Source of the DNA: Luteibacter jiangsuensis
GTDB taxonomy: Bacteria; Pseudomonadota; Gammaproteobacteria; Xanthomonadales; Rhodanobacteraceae
Length of the DNA: 64,000 nucleotides
Assembly (NCBI RefSeq): GCF_030812295.1
Contig: NZ_JAUSSK010000001.1
Location: 310,001 to 374,000 of the forward strand
Direction of reading: 5' to 3'
The notes under the pieces are model-generated. The model was not told where the DNA came from and made no database searches. It was given only the letters and a program-made list of their open reading frames with translations. Made by a program: the position numbers and the translations under genes. This document shows, piece by piece, positions 4,544 through 62,391 of this stretch (positions are counted from its first letter, which is position 1; each line of letters starts with the position of its first letter).

Positions 4544-6014
<1,471 letters not shown>

Positions 6015-6018
<4 letters not shown>

Positions 6019-6851
6019 GACCCGGAACTATAGCCCATCGGCCCGGCGTGTTCTCGGAGGGCTTGCAGCACCTGGCCGGCGTCGTCGGCGAAGCGCACGA
6101 TCGCCTGGTCGAGGTAACGGTGGCGCCCTTGCTCCAGTTCCCGTTCAAGTGCCAGTCCGACGCAGGACAACTCGGTGGCCTCGGCCATGCCGAGGGCGCC
6201 GGATACCCTGTGCAGCCAGGCCTGCAGGTGGGTGGTTCCCGGCTCGACGAGCAGCGCCCCGAGGCCGGCGAGGTCGCTGCTCAACGCGCGGTCGAGTGCG
6301 ACGATCACTTGCCGCAGCGCGTCTTCGCCTCCGAGCGTGGAACGCAAGGCGTCCACGTCGATGCGTGGCGGCACGCGCGGCCGTTCGAAGGCAAGTTCGA
6401 TGATGATCCGGTTGCCGATGTCCGCGTCCCATTCACGATGGACCACGCCGCCGATGGCGGCGACCATCCCCGCTACGTCGTCCAGGCAAGCGTGGTCGTC
6501 CGCGATGGGCCTGTGTTCATCGGCCACCGTGAAATGCACGATCTGCGTTCCCGCGTCGTCGCCGACCACGTCCACGTGTAACGCGACATACCCGGTGCGG
6601 GCATGGAGCGCGTGTTCCAGCAGCAAGGACAGTGCTCGGCCAAGTGTGGAAAACGGGCCTTGCAGGTTGCCGCCGAGCGCCGGGTCGATCTCGAAGTCGA
6701 GCCGGATGCCGCGCGCGAGCGCATCCTGGGCGTAGCGGCGGCCAACCCTGCCCAGCAGCTGGGGCAGGCTGCTGCTGGCCTCGATGCGCAGCCGCGCAGC
6801 CATGTCTCCACGGGTCTTCCACCAGTCGGCGATGCGATGCAGGAGTGGCAT
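6015..6851 (-). CDS. RcsD-like phosphotransfer protein: degenerate HATPase domain plus HPt domain
   Basis: 278 residues from the ATG at 6851; in-frame TTG starts exist up to 6923. Residues about 20-160 look like a histidine-kinase ATPase domain that has decayed: the N-box position reads LSLLLEHALHART, without the Asn that coordinates Mg-ATP, and no HisKA dimerisation helix precedes it. The C-terminal 100 residues form an HPt bundle with the phospho-accepting His214 in WLHRVSGALGMAE. A dead kinase core fused to HPt is the layout of RcsD cytoplasmic domains, and the divergent neighbour is an RcsB-like regulator. No membrane segment is seen. It forms an operon with the sirtuin. Partner kinase not in the window. 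Confidence 0.75.
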
Positions 6852-6944
6852 CGGAGGGCGTGATGTGCTCAACTCTGCGGCCCGCCCACGATGCTCCAGA
6901 CCGGCACGTGGGTGGTTGGACAAGCAAGAAAGGATGGATCACTC

Positions 6945-7583
6945 ATGGTCTACCGTGTCATTCTGGCCGACGATCACCCCGTCGTGTTGAAGGGCCTCAG
7001 CCTCGCCCTGGCCAAAGATGGCCTTGCGACGGTGGTAGGAGAAGCACAGTCGCCTGACGAACTCCTCGGCCTGCTCGCGGTGACGCCCTGCGATGCGCTG
7101 ATCACCGACTTCAGCATGCCTGCTCCTGGACGCGACGGCCTGGCGCTGCTGCACGAGATACGCCGACGGCATCCCACGCTTCCCGTGATGGTGATCACGA
7201 CGTTGGCCAATCCGGCGTTGTATCGCGAGATCATCGGGACAGGCGTGCTCGGCCTCATCGGCAAGTCCGGCGACACCCGGGAAATTCCCGAGGCGTTGAT
7301 GGAAATCCTGTCGAATCATGTCTACCTCGGTAGTTCGGTGCGCGATCTGGTCGCTACGCCACATGGCGAGCCGCTGGGCAAGTCCGGAACACTGGCCGAC
7401 CTTTCACCACGCGAACTGAAGATCCTGCGGCTCTTCGCCGCCGGTAACAGCGTCACCGATATCGCCAAGGCGACGGGGCGTGGACTGTCGACCGTCAGCC
7501 AGCAGAAATCGAACGCGATGCGAAAGTTGCGGCTGGACACGGATGCCGAAATTTTCGAGTACATCGAACGGTTGCGCTTGTGA
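6945..7583 (+). CDS. NarL/RcsB-type response regulator
   Basis: 212 residues from the ATG at 6945, with an AAAGGA site upstream. Receiver domain: acidic pair Asp9-Asp10 in VILADDHPVV, phospho-acceptor Asp55 in ALITDFSMP, Thr in MVITT and the conserved Lys in LIGKSG. Output domain: LuxR-type helix-turn-helix with LSPRELKILRLFAAGNSVT followed by VSQQKSNAMRKLRL, which closely resembles RcsB. RcsB-type regulators receive phosphate from an HPt domain, and the divergent gene encodes just such a protein, with about 90 bases of shared promoter region. Envelope-stress or surface control is the likely role, by analogy only. Confidence 0.9.
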   Translation: MVYRVILADDHPVVLKGLSLALAKDGLATVVGEAQSPDELLGLLAVTPCDALITDFSMPAPGRDGLALLHEIRRRHPTLPVMVITTLANPALYREIIGTGVLGLIGKSGDTREIPEALMEILSNHVYLGSSVRDLVATPHGEPLGKSGTLADLSPRELKILRLFAAGNSVTDIAKATGRGLSTVSQQKSNAMRKLRLDTDAEIFEYIERLRL

Positions 7584-7686
7584 TGCGCCATCGTCGGACA
7601 CCACGATAACCATCGCGGGACGCGACGGACATGGAAGATTTCTCAAAACACGTCGTATGCTTGGGGGACCGGATCCCAGGAGAGCC

Positions 7687-9333
7687 ATGGTGAGTGCCAA
7701 GATCAGCCCACTTGCGGGAAAACCCGCCACGGAAAGCCAGCCTGTCGACGTGGCGGCCTTGCTCGCCGCCTACCACGACCTCAAGCCGGAGCCATCCGTG
7801 CCCGAACAGCGGGTGGTCTTCGGTACGTCCGGTCATCGGGGTTCCTCGTTCGACCGTTCGTTCAACGAATGGCATGTGCTGGCCGTGGTCCAGGCGATTT
7901 GTGAATATCGCGCGAAGGATGGCGTCGACGGTCCGGTGTTCGTCGGCATCGACACCCATGCGTTGTCCGGCCCGGCGTTTGAAAGCACCCTGGAAGTGCT
8001 GGCTGGAAACGGTGTGCAGACGCGGATCTCCGCCGGTGGCGAGTTTACGCCGACACCCGCGGTGTCGCACGCCATCCTGGTCCACAATCGCGGCCGCGAG
8101 AGCGGTCGTGCCGACGGCATCGTCATCACCCCGTCGCACAATCCGCCCGAGAGTGGCGGGATCAAGTACAACCCTCCCCATGGCGGTCCCGCGGATACCG
8201 ACGCCACGTCATGGATCGCGGCGCGTGCCAACGCCCTGATCGAAGGCGGCCTGCGCGAGGTGAAGCGCCTTCCCTTCGCCCAGGCCCGCAAGGCCGGAAC
8301 CACGCACGAATTCGATTTCCTGCAGCGCTACGTCGGTGATCTGGACGACGTGCTCGACCTGGAGATCATCCGCGCGAAGGGCGTACGCATGGGGGTCGAT
8401 CCACTCGGTGGCGCGGGCGTCCATTACTGGAGCGCGATCGGCGAGCGCTATGGCCTGAATCTCACGGTGGTGAGCGAGACCGTCGACCCGACGTTCTCGT
8501 TCATGTCGCTGGACTGGGACGGCCGCGTGCGCATGGATCCATCGTCCTCGTTTGCGATGCAGCGGCTGATCGGCCTGAAGGACAAGTTCGACGTGGCCTT
8601 CGCCTGCGATACGGACCACGACCGGCATGGCGTCGTCGCGCCGAGTTCGGGTTTGATGCAAGCCAATCATTATCTCTCGGCCGCGGCCTGGTACCTGTTC
8701 CAGAATCGTCCCGGCTGGCGTGCCGACGCGGCCATCGGCAAGACCGCGGTCAGCACCGCGCTGCTGGACCGCATCGCAGGGCACCTGGGCCGGCCGTTGC
8801 GCGAGGTGCCGGTGGGCTTCAAGTATTTCGTCGCGGGCCTGTACGACGGCAGCCTCGGATTCGGTTGCGAGGAAAGCGCCGGCGCATCGTTTCTGGCCAA
8901 GGACGCGTCGGCATGGTCCACCGACAAGGATGGCATCGTGGCGGCCTTGCTCGCCGGCGAGATGACCGCTCGTCTCGGCAAGGATCCAGGCGAGCTGTAT
9001 TCGGACATCACCAAACAGCTGGGCGACCCGGCCAATGCGCGCATCGATGCGCCGGCCAACCATGCGCAGAAGACGAAGCTGTCGAAGCTCGCGCCGGAGC
9101 AGGTCACCTCAAAGACCCTCGCGGGTGATCCGATCGTCGAGGTAACCAACAAGGCGGGCGGGCAGCCCATCGGCGGCATCAAGGTGATCTCGGCGAACGG
9201 CTGGTTCGCCGCGCGTCCCTCGGGCACCGAGGACATCTACAAGGTCTATGGCGAGAGCTTCCGCGGCAAGGAACATCTGCAGACCATCCTCGCCGAGGCC
9301 CAGGCGATGGTCGACCGCGCGCTCTCCGACTGA
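7687..9333 (+). CDS. pgm: Alpha-D-phosphoglucomutase
   Basis: 548 residues from the ATG at 7687 with a CAGGAGAG site. Interconverts glucose 1-phosphate and glucose 6-phosphate. The family motifs are in order: FGTSGHRG, active-site phosphoserine loop VITPSHNPPESGG, metal loop ACDTDHDRHG (a Thr variant of DPDxDR), sugar-binding CEESAGASF and the phosphate-binding RPSGTEDIYKVYGESF. Length and layout match the E. coli Pgm branch rather than the bifunctional phosphomannomutase branch. Glucose 1-phosphate from this step feeds UDP-glucose, the donor for the cyclic glucan synthase encoded at 23.6-32 kb, and glucose 6-phosphate feeds the nearby zwf product. Confidence 0.96.
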   Translation: MVSAKISPLAGKPATESQPVDVAALLAAYHDLKPEPSVPEQRVVFGTSGHRGSSFDRSFNEWHVLAVVQAICEYRAKDGVDGPVFVGIDTHALSGPAFESTLEVLAGNGVQTRISAGGEFTPTPAVSHAILVHNRGRESGRADGIVITPSHNPPESGGIKYNPPHGGPADTDATSWIAARANALIEGGLREVKRLPFAQARKAGTTHEFDFLQRYVGDLDDVLDLEIIRAKGVRMGVDPLGGAGVHYWSAIGERYGLNLTVVSETVDPTFSFMSLDWDGRVRMDPSSSFAMQRLIGLKDKFDVAFACDTDHDRHGVVAPSSGLMQANHYLSAAAWYLFQNRPGWRADAAIGKTAVSTALLDRIAGHLGRPLREVPVGFKYFVAGLYDGSLGFGCEESAGASFLAKDASAWSTDKDGIVAALLAGEMTARLGKDPGELYSDITKQLGDPANARIDAPANHAQKTKLSKLAPEQVTSKTLAGDPIVEVTNKAGGQPIGGIKVISANGWFAARPSGTEDIYKVYGESFRGKEHLQTILAEAQAMVDRALSD

Positions 9334-57815: not shown

Positions 57816-57934
57816 AAGAGCCGTTCCATTTCCACCATTGACGCGGTCGGCGTGGACGCCCAGCATGCGTATCAGGGGGCGGCGGCATCGGTGTGTACCC
57901 ACCTACGGACAACCTGTTCCCGATCGGTGTCGCC

Positions 57935-58612
57935 ATGAACAAGAACCTCACCATCCGCGACGTGCACAGGCCGAGGGCCGGAATGGCTGAACAGGAAACA
58001 CACCGCACGCTAGGTGAAGCCGGCTTCCGGCGCGAAGCCGCGCACGCCTTGAGCACGCCACTGGGAAGCCTGCTGTTGCGGGCGGAACTGATCGACCACT
58101 ACCTGCGCCAGGACAAGGTCCCGCAAGCGCGCGAGGCGGTGACAGCGTTGCTTCGCGACTTCGACGCCTTCGGCCGCCGCTTCCGTTCGGCCTTCGCCGC
58201 GATGGCGGACATCGCCGAGGAAGGTTCGGAACCTGGTAATCCGCGCGAGTGCCTTGCGGAGGCCCTGGTGGAAATGCGCGACGAAGCCGTCGCCGTCGGT
58301 TACCGCGGGCTCGCGCCATCCGTGGCGATGCCGGCGGCTGCCTTGACGGCGCTGATGCGGCGTCTCGTCTTGCTGGCCGCGGAGACGCACGCCAGCGATG
58401 TGACGCTTAGCGGTACGCGGTCCGGCGACCAGTGTCTGCTTTCGCTGACAGGCGTGGGCGGCGATTCGGTAGCGGAAGAAAGACAACCCTTCGAATCCGA
58501 GCGTAGCCTTCACCTGTGGACGGCCAGGGAAATCGTCGCCCGCCATGGCGGCCGCCTGGTGGCCGCGGAAACCAGCGATACCATCGTCCGGGTCATCCTG
58601 CCGATCGTCTAG
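57935..58612 (+). CDS. Orphan degenerate histidine-kinase-like protein
   Basis: 225 residues from the ATG at 57935. A HisKA-like helix carries His37 in REAAHALSTPLGSLLLRAEL, the H-x-x-x-TPL signature of phospho-accepting sites. The second half resembles a HATPase fold (LWTAREIVARHGGRLVAAE near the end is the usual G2/last-helix region) but lacks the N-box Asn and the DxGxG loop. No sensor or membrane segment and no receiver partner next door. It may be a phosphotransfer (ChpT-like) or decoy protein; the ChpT parallel is an inference from its size and structure order. Confidence 0.6.
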   Translation: MNKNLTIRDVHRPRAGMAEQETHRTLGEAGFRREAAHALSTPLGSLLLRAELIDHYLRQDKVPQAREAVTALLRDFDAFGRRFRSAFAAMADIAEEGSEPGNPRECLAEALVEMRDEAVAVGYRGLAPSVAMPAAALTALMRRLVLLAAETHASDVTLSGTRSGDQCLLSLTGVGGDSVAEERQPFESERSLHLWTAREIVARHGGRLVAAETSDTIVRVILPIV

Positions 58613-58740: not shown

Positions 58741-59247
58741 ATGGCGGTAAAGACGATCGAAGACCTCTTCATTCATGAGCTCTCGGATATCTACAGCGCG
58801 GAGAAACAACTGACCAAGGCATTGCCGCGCCTTGCCCGCGCCGCTACGGCGCCCGAGCTGAAACAGGCATTCGAGACCCACCTGGAGGAAACCCAGGGAC
58901 AGGTGGAACGCATCGACCAGATCGTCGAGGCGCTCGGCATCCGGCTCAAACGCATCAAGTGCGCGGCGATGGAAGGCCTCGTGGAGGAAGGCAAGGAAGT
59001 GATCGAGGAAGTCGACGCCGGCGCATTGCGCGACGCGGCCCTCATCGGCGGTGCGCAAAAGGTCGAGCATTACGAGATCGCCTCGTACGGCACGCTTTCG
59101 GCGATCGCGAAGCAACTCGGTTACAAGGACGCGTTGCCCTTGCTGCAGGCCACGCTCAAGGAAGAAAAGGCGACCGATGAGAAGCTGACGATATTGGCCG
59201 ACCAAGTGGGAAACCAGCGCGCCGCCGAGAAATCGAAAGCGGCCTGA
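58741..59247 (+). CDS. Ferritin-like DUF892 protein (YciE family)
   Basis: 168 residues, ATG start. Four-helix ferritin-like bundle with the family opening TIEDLFIHELSDIYSAEKQL and repeated Glu/His metal positions (ETHLEETQGQVERIDQI, GGAQKVEHYEIASYGTL, LKEEKATDEKL). YciE proteins bind a di-iron site and are induced by stress; the exact reaction is not known. Stand-alone gene, full length. Confidence 0.9.
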   Translation: MAVKTIEDLFIHELSDIYSAEKQLTKALPRLARAATAPELKQAFETHLEETQGQVERIDQIVEALGIRLKRIKCAAMEGLVEEGKEVIEEVDAGALRDAALIGGAQKVEHYEIASYGTLSAIAKQLGYKDALPLLQATLKEEKATDEKLTILADQVGNQRAAEKSKAA

Positions 59248-59379: not shown

Positions 59380-60186
59380 ATGAATACATCGCAGTCACAG
59401 CGTGGACGGCTCGCGTGCGTCGGCATGGGCATGACCCTTGGTTCCCATCTGACGCCGTTGGCCCGCAGCCATATCGAGCAGGCCGACGTGGTGTTCGCGG
59501 CGCTGTCCGACGGCATCGTGGAGGCGTGGCTGCAACGCATGCATGGCGATGTGCGCAGCCTGCAGCCGTACTACCGGGAAGGCAAGTCGCGCATGACGAC
59601 CTACCGTCAATGGGTCGACCTGATGATGACCGAAGTGAGGGCCGGCAAGCGTGTCTGCGGCGTCTTCTATGGCCATCCGGGGATCTTCGCCTGGTCGCCG
59701 CACAAGGCGGTCGAGGTCGCCCGGGCGGAGGGCTTCGCGGCGCACATGGAGCCCGGCATCTCGGCCGAGGACTGCCTCTATGCGGATCTAGGCATCGACC
59801 CGGGTCGTTTCGGCTGCCAGCACTTCGAGGCCAGCCAGTTATTGTTCTATGAGCGCCGCATCGATCCCACGGGCTACCTGGTGCTATGGCAGGTAGGTGT
59901 CGTCGGCGACAGGTCGCTGGCACGGCTTCGCACGGACGGGGCGTACCGGCAAGTACTCGTGGATGTGCTGGGCCACGACTACCCGCTGGACCACGAAATC
60001 ATCGTCTACCGCGCAGCGACACTGCCCATCCAGAAGCCGGGTATCCGCCGCATCCTCCTGCGCGACCTGCCGCACGTTCCCCTGGCTCCCGAGGAAACGG
60101 TGGTCCTTCCGCCGGCCGCCGCCTTGAAGGCGAACCTCGCCATCCGGGAGCGGCTGGCCGTCCTGGACGCATCGGCCGAGCGGTAA
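59380..60186 (+). CDS. Split-borosin alpha-N-methyltransferase (SonM-like, tetrapyrrole-methylase fold)
   Basis: 268 residues from the ATG at 59380; the open frame back to 59275 is not conserved-looking. The fold is the tetrapyrrole (precorrin) methylase type: LACVGMGMTLGSHLTPLARS, VFAALSDGIVEAWL, VCGVFYGHPGIFAWSPH, AHMEPGISAEDCLYADLGID and FEASQLLFYERRID. This pattern matches Shewanella SonM, which methylates backbone amides of a separate peptide, rather than cobalamin enzymes. Catalytic residues expected from the family are present: Arg71 and Tyr75 in SRMTTYRQW, with Tyr64/Tyr65 just before. No cobalamin genes lie nearby. The probable substrate peptide is encoded 116 bases downstream. Confidence 0.88.
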   Translation: MNTSQSQRGRLACVGMGMTLGSHLTPLARSHIEQADVVFAALSDGIVEAWLQRMHGDVRSLQPYYREGKSRMTTYRQWVDLMMTEVRAGKRVCGVFYGHPGIFAWSPHKAVEVARAEGFAAHMEPGISAEDCLYADLGIDPGRFGCQHFEASQLLFYERRIDPTGYLVLWQVGVVGDRSLARLRTDGAYRQVLVDVLGHDYPLDHEIIVYRAATLPIQKPGIRRILLRDLPHVPLAPEETVVLPPAAALKANLAIRERLAVLDASAER

Positions 60187-60302
60187 GGACACGATTATTC
60201 GCGAAAGCCTGGAAGATACGGGGAATGCGTAAAGAACCTAAAGAAATGCCGGGAGATGCCGTCAAGGTGTGAAAGTGCTCGCAGGGAGCAGGGGGTAATA
60301 CC

Positions 60303-60608
60303 ATGTCGGATACGATCGAATTGCTGGAGGCCATCGGCCGCGACGCATCGCTGCGCCACATATCGGCGGAGGAGCTGGCCGACCTCCTGCGGCGGGTCCA
60401 GGCGAGCGAGGCACTCACGAAGACCGTGGTTTCGGGCGATCGATCGTGGCTGTCCGAGGAGTTCGGAACCATCCTTATGCACACGACGCACATCTCCCAG
60501 ATCCCCGCCCATGAGGACGACGAGGACGAGGACGACAAGCCGGACCACGACGAGGACGGCAAGGAGCACGAGAACGAGTCGCCGTGCCCTCCGGCGGAGC
60601 AGCCGTAG
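60303..60608 (+). CDS. Split-borosin precursor peptide with acidic C-terminal tail
   Basis: 101 residues from the ATG at 60303, with a CAGGGGG site. Residues 1-55 form a helical domain (TIELLEAIGRDASLRHISAE, VVSGDRSWLSEEFG) that follows the borosin-binding domain of SonA in length and pattern, including the GD-x-x-x-L turn before the core. Residues about 56-70 (TILMHTTHISQIPAH) are the likely core where backbone N-methylation would occur. Residues about 71-91 are nearly all Asp, Glu, Lys and His, and the end is Pro-rich with one Cys. It stands between the methyltransferase gene and a diguanylate cyclase gene. Precursor status is inferred from fold pattern and context. Confidence 0.75.
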   Translation: MSDTIELLEAIGRDASLRHISAEELADLLRRVQASEALTKTVVSGDRSWLSEEFGTILMHTTHISQIPAHEDDEDEDDKPDHDEDGKEHENESPCPPAEQP

Positions 60609-60618
60609 CGATGTGGGC

Positions 60619-62391
60619 ATGCGCCGGGCGATAAGCCGCTCCCGGTCATGCGCGATCGGCGTCGCGCTGGTCTGGTGCGTGCTGGTGTCGCCAGGCCTGG
60701 CCACGGCATCCATAGCCGATCCGGCGGCGTTCCTCGAGCAGACGGAAGCCCTGCGCACGAAGGACCATTCACGATTCGTCGAGAGGCTGCGACAGGTACG
60801 TCGTGAAGGCCCTTCGCTGAGCACGCCGCAGCAATGGCATCTGCGCTATCTCGACGCATGGGAAACCATGTTCGAGGGTGACTACTCGCGGTCCGAGGCT
60901 CAACTGCGCGACATCATCGGCCATTCCGGCGATGTCACGCTCGCCGCCAAGGCATCGGCATTGCTCCTGAGCAACCTGGGCGCCAATCGACGGTACGACG
61001 AGGCCTTCGCGCTCGCCAATCACCTGGTGGACGACCTGCCGCGGATCGACGATCCGCTGGCCCGCTCGATGGTGTTGATGAACCTGTCGCAGATGTTCAA
61101 CCTGGCCGGCCAGACCGACCTCGCCATCCAGTATGCCGGCATGATGGAAAGCGCCGTGCCCCCCGGCGAAACCCTGTGTTATCCCTTCTCCATGCGGGCC
61201 GCGGCGCTTAACAATACCGGACGCCTGACCTCGTCCAGTCCTGAACTGACGAAGGCCATCGATGCCTGCGTCACCGCCGGGCAGCCGATCCTGGCCAATA
61301 CCATGTGGCTCGTCCTCGGCGACCGCTTCATCGACGAAGGGCAGCCGCGCAAGACCCTGGCCCTCCTCGAACGGATCGAACCGAGCATTCGCGCCAGCGA
61401 TTACTACGCCCACTTGTTGTCCTCGCAGGTGCAACGGGCCAGGGCGAACGAGAAACTCGGCAACGTGGAGGGTGCCAGGAAGGCGGCGCTCGCCGCCCTG
61501 GCAATGGGTGACGACACCGAGATGAACGAGTGGATGAGGGACGCCTATGGGGTGCTTTACCGGATCGAGAAGGGACAAGGCCACGCGTCGGCCGCGCTTT
61601 CGTATTACGAACGCTATGTCGCCCAGGACAAGGGCTATCTGGACGACATCACGGCGAGGGACGTCGCGTTTGAACTGAGCAGACAACATCTGCTCGCGCA
61701 AAAGCTCGAGACGGAGCGGCTCGCCAGACAGAACAGTGTCCTCCGCCTGCAGAAGGCGCTGGAGACCAAGGCGGTCGAGACCAGCCGGTTATATATCGTC
61801 CTGCTACTGCTGTTCCTGGCGTCCGTGGTGTTCTGGCTGTTGCGGACCAAGCGCTCGCAACTCCGCTTCAAGAAGCTGTCCTGGCACGACGGCTTGACCG
61901 GTATCTTCAACCGCCAGCATTTCATGAACGAGGCCGAACGTATCCTGCGTTCGCTGGAGAAGCGCACGGGCGACGCCTGCCTGGTCTTCATCGACCTGGA
62001 TCATTTCAAGCAGATCAACGATACGCATGGCCATGCCATGGGCGATCTCGTGCTCAAACATGCGGTGGCCATTTGCGGCCAACAATTGCGCCCCGGTGAT
62101 GTGTTCGGCCGCCTGGGCGGTGAGGAATTCGGCATGTTGCTCGTCGGGTGTCCCGGGGAGCGGGGCATGCTCGTCGCCGACCACATCCGCATGGCGATCG
62201 AAGCGTCGCCGGTCATCGAGGAAGGCTGTGTCGTGTCGTTCTCCACGAGTGTCGGCCTTGCCGCCACCGGGACGTGCGGCTACGAACTGCAACGGCTGTG
62301 CCGGGAAGCGGACATGGCCCTTTACAAGGCAAAACGTGCCGGACGCAACCGGGTGATGGCGGATACGTCCGGCAGCCTCGCCGAATCCTAG
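60619..62391 (+). CDS. Membrane diguanylate cyclase with periplasmic TPR-like sensor
   Basis: 590 residues from the ATG at 60619, ten bases after the borosin precursor stop. A signal peptide (CAIGVALVWCVLVSPGLATA) is followed by about 370 residues of helical-repeat (TPR-like) sensor, a membrane helix (LYIVLLLLFLASVVFWLL, near residue 395) and a GGDEF domain: DGLTGIFNRQHF, FIDLDHFKQINDTHGHAMGD, and the active site GGEEF at residues 500-504. The inhibitory I-site RPGD (491-494) is spaced five residues before it, so feedback by cyclic-di-GMP is likely. An active enzyme making cyclic-di-GMP is expected. Converges on the TonB receptor with four bases between. Confidence 0.93.
   Translation: MRRAISRSRSCAIGVALVWCVLVSPGLATASIADPAAFLEQTEALRTKDHSRFVERLRQVRREGPSLSTPQQWHLRYLDAWETMFEGDYSRSEAQLRDIIGHSGDVTLAAKASALLLSNLGANRRYDEAFALANHLVDDLPRIDDPLARSMVLMNLSQMFNLAGQTDLAIQYAGMMESAVPPGETLCYPFSMRAAALNNTGRLTSSSPELTKAIDACVTAGQPILANTMWLVLGDRFIDEGQPRKTLALLERIEPSIRASDYYAHLLSSQVQRARANEKLGNVEGARKAALAALAMGDDTEMNEWMRDAYGVLYRIEKGQGHASAALSYYERYVAQDKGYLDDITARDVAFELSRQHLLAQKLETERLARQNSVLRLQKALETKAVETSRLYIVLLLLFLASVVFWLLRTKRSQLRFKKLSWHDGLTGIFNRQHFMNEAERILRSLEKRTGDACLVFIDLDHFKQINDTHGHAMGDLVLKHAVAICGQQLRPGDVFGRLGGEEFGMLLVGCPGERGMLVADHIRMAIEASPVIEEGCVVSFSTSVGLAATGTCGYELQRLCREADMALYKAKRAGRNRVMADTSGSLAES

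Follow-up and report, generated by a model that had tools for sequence, protein, structure and literature searches.

The window analysed here, a 64,000-nucleotide stretch of Luteibacter jiangsuensis DNA, contains three consecutive genes on one strand, designated M, A, and S. Their features are as follows.

59380..60186, + strand: M, a borosin-type peptide alpha-N-methyltransferase, 268 aa (identity to SonM, phmmer against the PDB, Pfam TP_methylase)
60303..60608, + strand: A, the borosin precursor, 101 aa (AlphaFold2 model; match of profile A1 to SonA at E 3e-6)
60303..60464, + strand: borosin-binding domain of A, residues 1-54, five helices (pLDDT, fold match)
60465..60512, + strand: putative core of A, residues 55-70, GTILMHTTHISQIPAH (placed by position and by relatives)
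60513..60605, + strand: acidic tail of A, residues 71-101, Asp/Glu 16/31 (sequence)
60619..62391, + strand: S, a TPR/transmembrane/GGDEF sensor, 590 aa, 10 bases 3′ of A (Pfam GGDEF, E 4e-37)
60619..60705, + strand: predicted Sec signal peptide of S (a hydrophobic N-terminal segment after MRRAISRSR)
60706..61668, + strand: TPR sensor domain of S, residues 30-350, predicted to be periplasmic (AlphaFold2, profile A2, alignment)
61786..61842, + strand: predicted membrane-spanning helix of S at about residues 390-408 (19-residue hydropathy of 2.49, with RTKRSQLRFKK following)
61882..62352, + strand: GGDEF domain of S, residues 422-578, with the active-site motif GGEEF and the I-site RPGD

SonM and SonA form the split borosin of Shewanella oneidensis, of type IV, and passages of the report on them implicate Y58, R67, and Y71 of SonM in turnover and Y93 in SAM binding (PMC8429565). 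The initial annotation had proposed that M and the small gene form a pair of this kind, with a sequence search against SonM as a check; in a phmmer search of the PDB sequences, SonM was indeed the top match for M (E 2e-76), and the two proteins are 47.7% identical across 256 alignment columns. Tyr65, Arg71, Tyr75, and Tyr97 of M align with SonM Y58, R67, Y71, and Y93, all four being conserved, which includes the Arg71/Tyr75 pattern already recognized in that annotation. The motifs that it had named (VGMGMTLG, GHPGIF, and EPGISAEDCLYADLGIDPG) are all present in the translation, and its gene positions and 116-base gap between M and the small gene are exact. All 25 distinct PDB chains listed for M at E≤0.01 by phmmer are borosin methyltransferases, among them MroMA, which we take to be one. 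Pfam returned a match to TP_methylase, a fold that borosin enzymes have in common, and NCBIfam models of the tetrapyrrole type scored only 13-27 bits against cut-offs of 163-525. By its sequence relationships, M is a borosin methyltransferase, grouped with SonM and OphM and apart from the tetrapyrrole methylases. As in known split borosins, it is a discrete alpha-N-methyltransferase of the SonM/OphM clade that retains the active-site residues, and it probably methylates the backbone of a small peptide. A cobalamin or sirohaem context, said to be absent, was found neither by eye in the frames at 54-64 kb nor by Pfam in five proteins. A plasmid search for M gave 8 records, every one of them under 60% identity. 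Directly 5′ of M, on the same strand, lies a DUF892 gene (58741-59247), which was not seen to belong to the conserved unit; the protein encoded at 57893-58612 resembles by eye the C-terminal part of a histidine kinase, without a Pfam match at E 0.1.

The helical domain that had been attributed to the product of the small gene, A, is well modelled. In the AlphaFold2 model, five helices (residues 2-13, 15-19, 22-31, 36-44, and 48-54) precede an unstructured, low-confidence tail, with pLDDT block means of 86-95 over residues 1-50. The tail is not short, as had been thought: 47 residues follow the helices, and acidic residues (Asp or Glu) make up 16 of the final 31. A profile of the 41-member precursor family (A1) matched SonA chains in the PDB at E 3e-6 over residues 1-61, with no other PDB match below E 0.1, which bears out the suggested likeness to SonA. 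The profile and structure comparison with SonA that had been proposed for the precursor thus gave a mixed outcome: the profile was positive, A as a single sequence had no match in the PDB, and the fold matches were weak. In VIA-align, the best match of the model was the SonA chain 9ch7_H, at a weak score (Z 4.7, 53 residues aligned, rmsd 3.1), and in Foldseek nothing fell below E 0.001, homeodomains coming first and SonA ranking eighth (E 3.8). Because these structural matches are weak, the assignment of the binding domain depends on profile A1. No NCBIfam family had more than one member among the 41 precursors at E≤0.01; one of the 41 matched 'NHLP-related RiPP peptide' (TIGR04509) at 5e-4. 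Two further hallmarks of a split borosin are therefore found here, namely a binding domain homologous to that of SonA (by profile A1) and a separate, neighbouring precursor gene. Judging from the position of the SonA core and from the relatives of A, residues 55-70 are the likely core. Overall, the pair resembles SonM/SonA in its separate methyltransferase of about 265 aa, its adjacent precursor with a five-helix borosin-binding domain, and the same catalytic residues, but the precursor differs from SonA in its length (101 aa, the SonA chain having 71), its core, and its long acidic tail.

The initial annotation took 59380-60608 as the unit. The pairing of M with A holds, but the end of the unit does not, since the conserved unit reaches 62391 and includes S; that reading was incomplete because it omitted the TPR-GGDEF gene that begins 10 bases after A. 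S has the composition of a diguanylate cyclase, with a GGDEF domain and an intact GG[DE]EF motif. For comparison, S frames no shorter than 540 aa, 71 in all, were collected from 70 M loci: GG[DE]EF is intact in 71/71 and the I-site is present in 64/71, while a hydrophobic N-terminal segment was found in 66/71, a membrane segment before the GGDEF domain in 67/71, and net positive charge after the membrane segment in 71/71. In the TPR part, Cys187 and Cys217 are invariant in 21/21 aligned proteins. Taken together, the N-terminal segment, the membrane segment, the positive charge, and the cysteine pair place the TPR part, as a prediction, in the periplasm.

Pfam TPR models fell below their cut-off for the S protein of the window and above it in several relatives. 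AlphaFold2 modelled the TPR part with a mean pLDDT of 90.4 (408-residue model). A profile of this part (A2) matched RapF chains best in the PDB (E 5e-6), including 4i9c, in which an inhibitory peptide is bound. With the model itself, VIA-align gave Z 22.4 for 4i9c (312 residues aligned, rmsd 4.7), about 22 for phage Rap with peptides, 20.7 for NprR, and 18.7 for AimR; human APPBP2 scored 23.8, above Rap, and an APC subunit 22.2, equal to Rap. These matches therefore point to a peptide-binding type of fold, not to a function. Receptors of the RRNPP type such as Rap, NprR, and AimR are described in the relevant passages of PMC9765709 as cytoplasmic and of Firmicutes. S shares with the RRNPP(A) receptors a TPR superhelix adjoined by a small propeptide gene—RapF being its best profile match, and Rap among its best fold matches—and, by its model and its structural and profile matches, it has the TPR receptor domain of that class. 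RRNPP receptors are cytoplasmic and are themselves DNA-binding proteins or phosphatases, whereas S, from a gammaproteobacterium, has a predicted signal peptide and membrane helix, a predicted periplasmic sensor part, and a GGDEF output (a cyclase, or a kinase in some relatives), and the peptide of the window has a folded leader and is probably backbone-methylated. S may work like an RRNPP receptor, but it is not classed as one.

The linkage of M, A, and S is well supported. Queried with the window sequences, 70 M loci contained A in 67 (all but L080, L100, and L103) and S in 66 (all but L037, L081, L083, and L102); a wider profile added S at L102, and at L037 and L083 the contig ends early. 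With start codons assigned by rule, the median spacing is 11 bases from A to S (n=66) and 183 bases from M to A (n=64). When frames of at least 110 aa within about 6 kb were clustered, M was represented in 70/70 loci and S in 67, the next separate-looking cluster occurring in 15 loci; the other large clusters were taken, from their positions, to be antisense or shadow frames of M, A, and S. No exporter or protease conserved beside the three genes was seen among these frames in the 70 loci.

Across the Luteibacter genome itself and 60 relatives, which are related genomes and not independent observations, M and S were found in an identical set of 42 genomes, and A in 41, with none of the three in the other 19. 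This count was made after five weak M rows and three short S rows had been dropped. The M rows, which came singly from G029, G033, G036, G051, and G055 with E-values of 9e-6 to 1.6e-4, were read as CysG-like from frame size, and the S rows (in G002, G005, and G055) span 60-120 residues; with the dropped rows kept, G055 would have a weak M and a weak S, and G036 and G051 would have M but no S. In G044, the S match is weak (E 1.3e-4) but was retained for its length and later confirmed by profile; this genome, which has no A match, contains a 77-residue, acidic-tailed frame just 3′ of M and 5′ of S. M and S are also jointly present or absent within five families of the host order (f1, f4, f5, f9, and f10).

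Within these 61 genomes, A keeps closer company with S than with M. Altogether, 98 of the 105 A genes lie upstream of an S, 78 of them within 600 bases and 20 followed on the same strand by an S at 0.6-6 kb, mostly as parts of tandem arrays; seven stand beside M only, and none stands alone. Conversely, 74 of the 96 S genes have an A within 600 bases upstream, the arrangement of propeptide and receptor genes seen in RRNPP systems. No M was found within 8 kb of 18 A-S pairs. The Luteibacter genome itself illustrates this layout, with one M, three A, and three S, every A directly 5′ of an S (two further precursor matches at E about 0.68, L034 and L035, were taken as noise). Of the 22 S genes that have no A within 600 bases upstream, six are separated from an A, about 2 kb upstream, by another S; a search for hidden precursors upstream of 14 others gave one clear case (L250), two weak ones (L239 and L244), and otherwise none. 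Twelve TPR-GGDEF genes (L237-L248) have no clearly recognisable upstream precursor, and are possibly receptors that listen to other peptides. At L080 (= L249; M and sensor gene within 5977-8673), the sensor gene begins about 100 bases after M, with no room for A.

Among 369 genomes drawn from the class, M was found in nine and the TPR profile (E≤1e-10) in four, all of them M genomes. In two of these four (L147 and L149), the gene after A encodes a TPR protein that also has histidine kinase and receiver domains. The other five distant M genomes had neither a match to the TPR profile nor a TPR sensor in the regions fetched, and the link between M and the sensor is thus not universal among borosins. 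In a second order, that of G405, M was found in 47/197 genomes (70 places) and the TPR profile in 38/197 (72 places), with both in 34, M only in 13, the TPR profile only in four, and neither in 146; 61 of the 72 TPR places lie at most 5 kb from an M, and 49 of the 70 M places at most 5 kb from a TPR place. From this order 40 regions containing 42 M were fetched, and 38 of the 40 encode a TPR protein—TPR-GGDEF in 30, TPR-histidine kinase in seven (six by local profile, L236 by Pfam), and TPR-only in one. That last region (L211 4800-6980, in G606) has, after the precursor and instead of a membrane sensor, two proteins (354 and 368 aa) that consist of TPR only and lack an output domain. Among the 40 regions, no TPR sensor was found in L230 and L235, and no A in L207, L208, and L230; at L203, M is on the opposite strand and A and S are still together. 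In a comparison of 53 regions, each of the eight M closest to SonM (64-81% identity) has a TPR-GGDEF neighbour, so that, by homology, the founding SonM branch is included; the sharing of this neighbour is a further likeness to SonM/SonA.

The association of A with the sensor across relatives hints that the peptides are signals. On balance, we lean towards the view that split borosins in this group serve as ligands for the TPR sensor of the adjoining gene, with M, A, and S forming one peptide-signalling module. The simplest account of three observations—A being tied more tightly to S than to M, A-S pairs occurring without a local M, and the output being swapped while the TPR part is kept—is that the sensor has the modified peptide as its ligand. 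By analogy with SonM/SonA, for which these steps are known, A would be made in the cytoplasm and its five-helix domain would dock on M, which would methylate backbone amides of the core just past the binding domain. The core would then be cut free and reach the periplasm; since backbone methylation resists proteases and aids membrane passage, a dedicated exporter may be unnecessary. There it would bind in the TPR superhelix of the adjoining sensor, and binding would alter the membrane-crossing helix and switch the output, a diguanylate cyclase here and a histidine kinase in some relatives. A single M could serve several A-S pairs per genome. Such a mode of action would be like that of the RRNPP (Rap/Phr) receptors, except that the peptide would be backbone-methylated and the sensor would sit in the membrane.

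Several findings count against this ligand reading. A starts with the binding domain and not with a signal peptide, and no conserved exporter or protease was seen among the neighbouring frames of at least 110 aa; TPR is a generic fold, with APPBP2 scoring above Rap. With shared history removed, the distances between cores and those between TPR parts correlated with a partial r of only 0.07 in 62 loci (GGDEF control, 0.04; M, 0.11). To these are added the S genes without A, L080 without room for one, the four second-order genomes with the TPR profile but no M, and the five distant M genomes without a TPR sensor.

The strongest alternative, which we regard as rather unlikely, is an ordinary split-borosin natural-product cluster, in which the TPR-GGDEF protein senses something else and times peptide production through c-di-GMP without being a receptor for the peptide. 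Cyclases can regulate secondary metabolism, so that such control is possible on general grounds, and the solitary S genes without a clear A and the low core-TPR correlation are both consistent with it. On the other hand, a production timer is at odds with the 18 A-S pairs that have no M within 8 kb, with S rather than M being the closer neighbour of A, and with S being missing wherever M is missing (61 genomes, weak rows dropped). The exchange of cyclase for kinase output with retention of the TPR part also argues against it, since it ties A to the sensing part of S.

It is less probable still, in our estimate, that A, methylated or not, is a cytoplasmic protein partner of S, acting for example on a coiled helix or on the output domain, with no free peptide exported. 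The start of A, which is not a signal peptide, the folded binding domain of the AlphaFold2 model, and the lack of a conserved exporter in the regions seen would all suit such a partner. So would a precedent from Vibrio vulnificus: in the sections of PMC12282931 that describe it, RcbB is a TPR-GGDEF cyclase whose TPR domain represses activity until RcbA, a partner from the same operon, acts. The likeness to RcbA/RcbB lies in a TPR-GGDEF cyclase with a partner gene in its operon, but the Vibrio partner is another TPR protein and not a RiPP precursor, and the main text of that report does not mention a methyltransferase, a RiPP, or a signal peptide. Against a cytoplasmic partner, the topology features (66/71, 67/71, and 71/71) and the cysteine pair (21/21) predict an extracytoplasmic location for the conserved part of S, and the output domain differs among relatives. 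Finally, the notion that M is a tetrapyrrole (cobalamin/sirohaem) methylase and the small gene unrelated deserves virtually no credence: the Pfam TP_methylase match would fit it, but it is ruled out by the borosin identity of all the listed PDB matches and the low NCBIfam scores, and the conserved SonM catalytic residues and the precursor at 67/70 M loci likewise oppose it.

The ligand reading extends to a broader proposal, which we advance tentatively and hold at slightly below even chances. In Gammaproteobacteria, split borosins would be backbone-N-methylated signals rather than secreted toxins or antibiotics, each meant for its adjoining periplasmic TPR sensor; they would form an RRNPP-like Gram-negative system that feeds into c-di-GMP or two-component pathways, in which several dispersed pairs would share one methyltransferase. 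If true, this would represent an additional peptide-signalling mechanism in Gram-negative bacteria and suggest a reason for the protease-resistant backbone of the peptides. The conserved partner sensor offers a candidate target and a simple readout for split borosin peptides. A product from Shewanella has reportedly been described since.

Part of this association has been noticed before. A figure legend from 2024 names a 'GGDEF-sequence-containing domain' among borosin architectures (PMC11395268), so that, as far as the legend goes, the association of GGDEF with borosins is at least partly known; in the literature searched, most subscription papers lying outside it, this was the only source in which borosin and GGDEF occurred together, and borosin and tetratricopeptide occurred together nowhere. 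In the accessible passages of the SonM paper, no mention of a sensor gene beside sonA was found (PMC8429565). The TPR-sensor link, the swap of cyclase for kinase, and the layout of one enzyme with many pairs were likewise not found in that literature, again mostly without subscription papers; the TPR-sensor link may already have been published, and priority is uncertain.

The relatives of A vary in their cores and in copy number. The core-equivalent stretch is often of the form M-x-x-PQ-x-[ST]-Q-x-P, or is a hydrophobic stretch ahead of acidic residues, and it is repeated in some relatives; acidic tails are common. Repeated core-like units occur in L087 (7361-7786; DKDEEEIR...GG), L093 (6578-7138; FSxALMPP), L086 (6898-7287; CCMMLP), and L029 (2450-2785; TGTQMPS), and this pattern suggests several cores per precursor. 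In Solimicrobium silvestre (L104, 5641-5970), a precursor frame ends, by eye, like a GGDEF C-terminus, ADKALYQAKSGGRN, perhaps through recombination between precursor and sensor genes. Tandem expansion was seen in two genomes of the same genus, with 18 precursors in G010 and 13 in G020 (L010 and L008); single arrays between M and the sensor gene hold 12 and seven of these, respectively, with short cores such as MYQPQATQSF.
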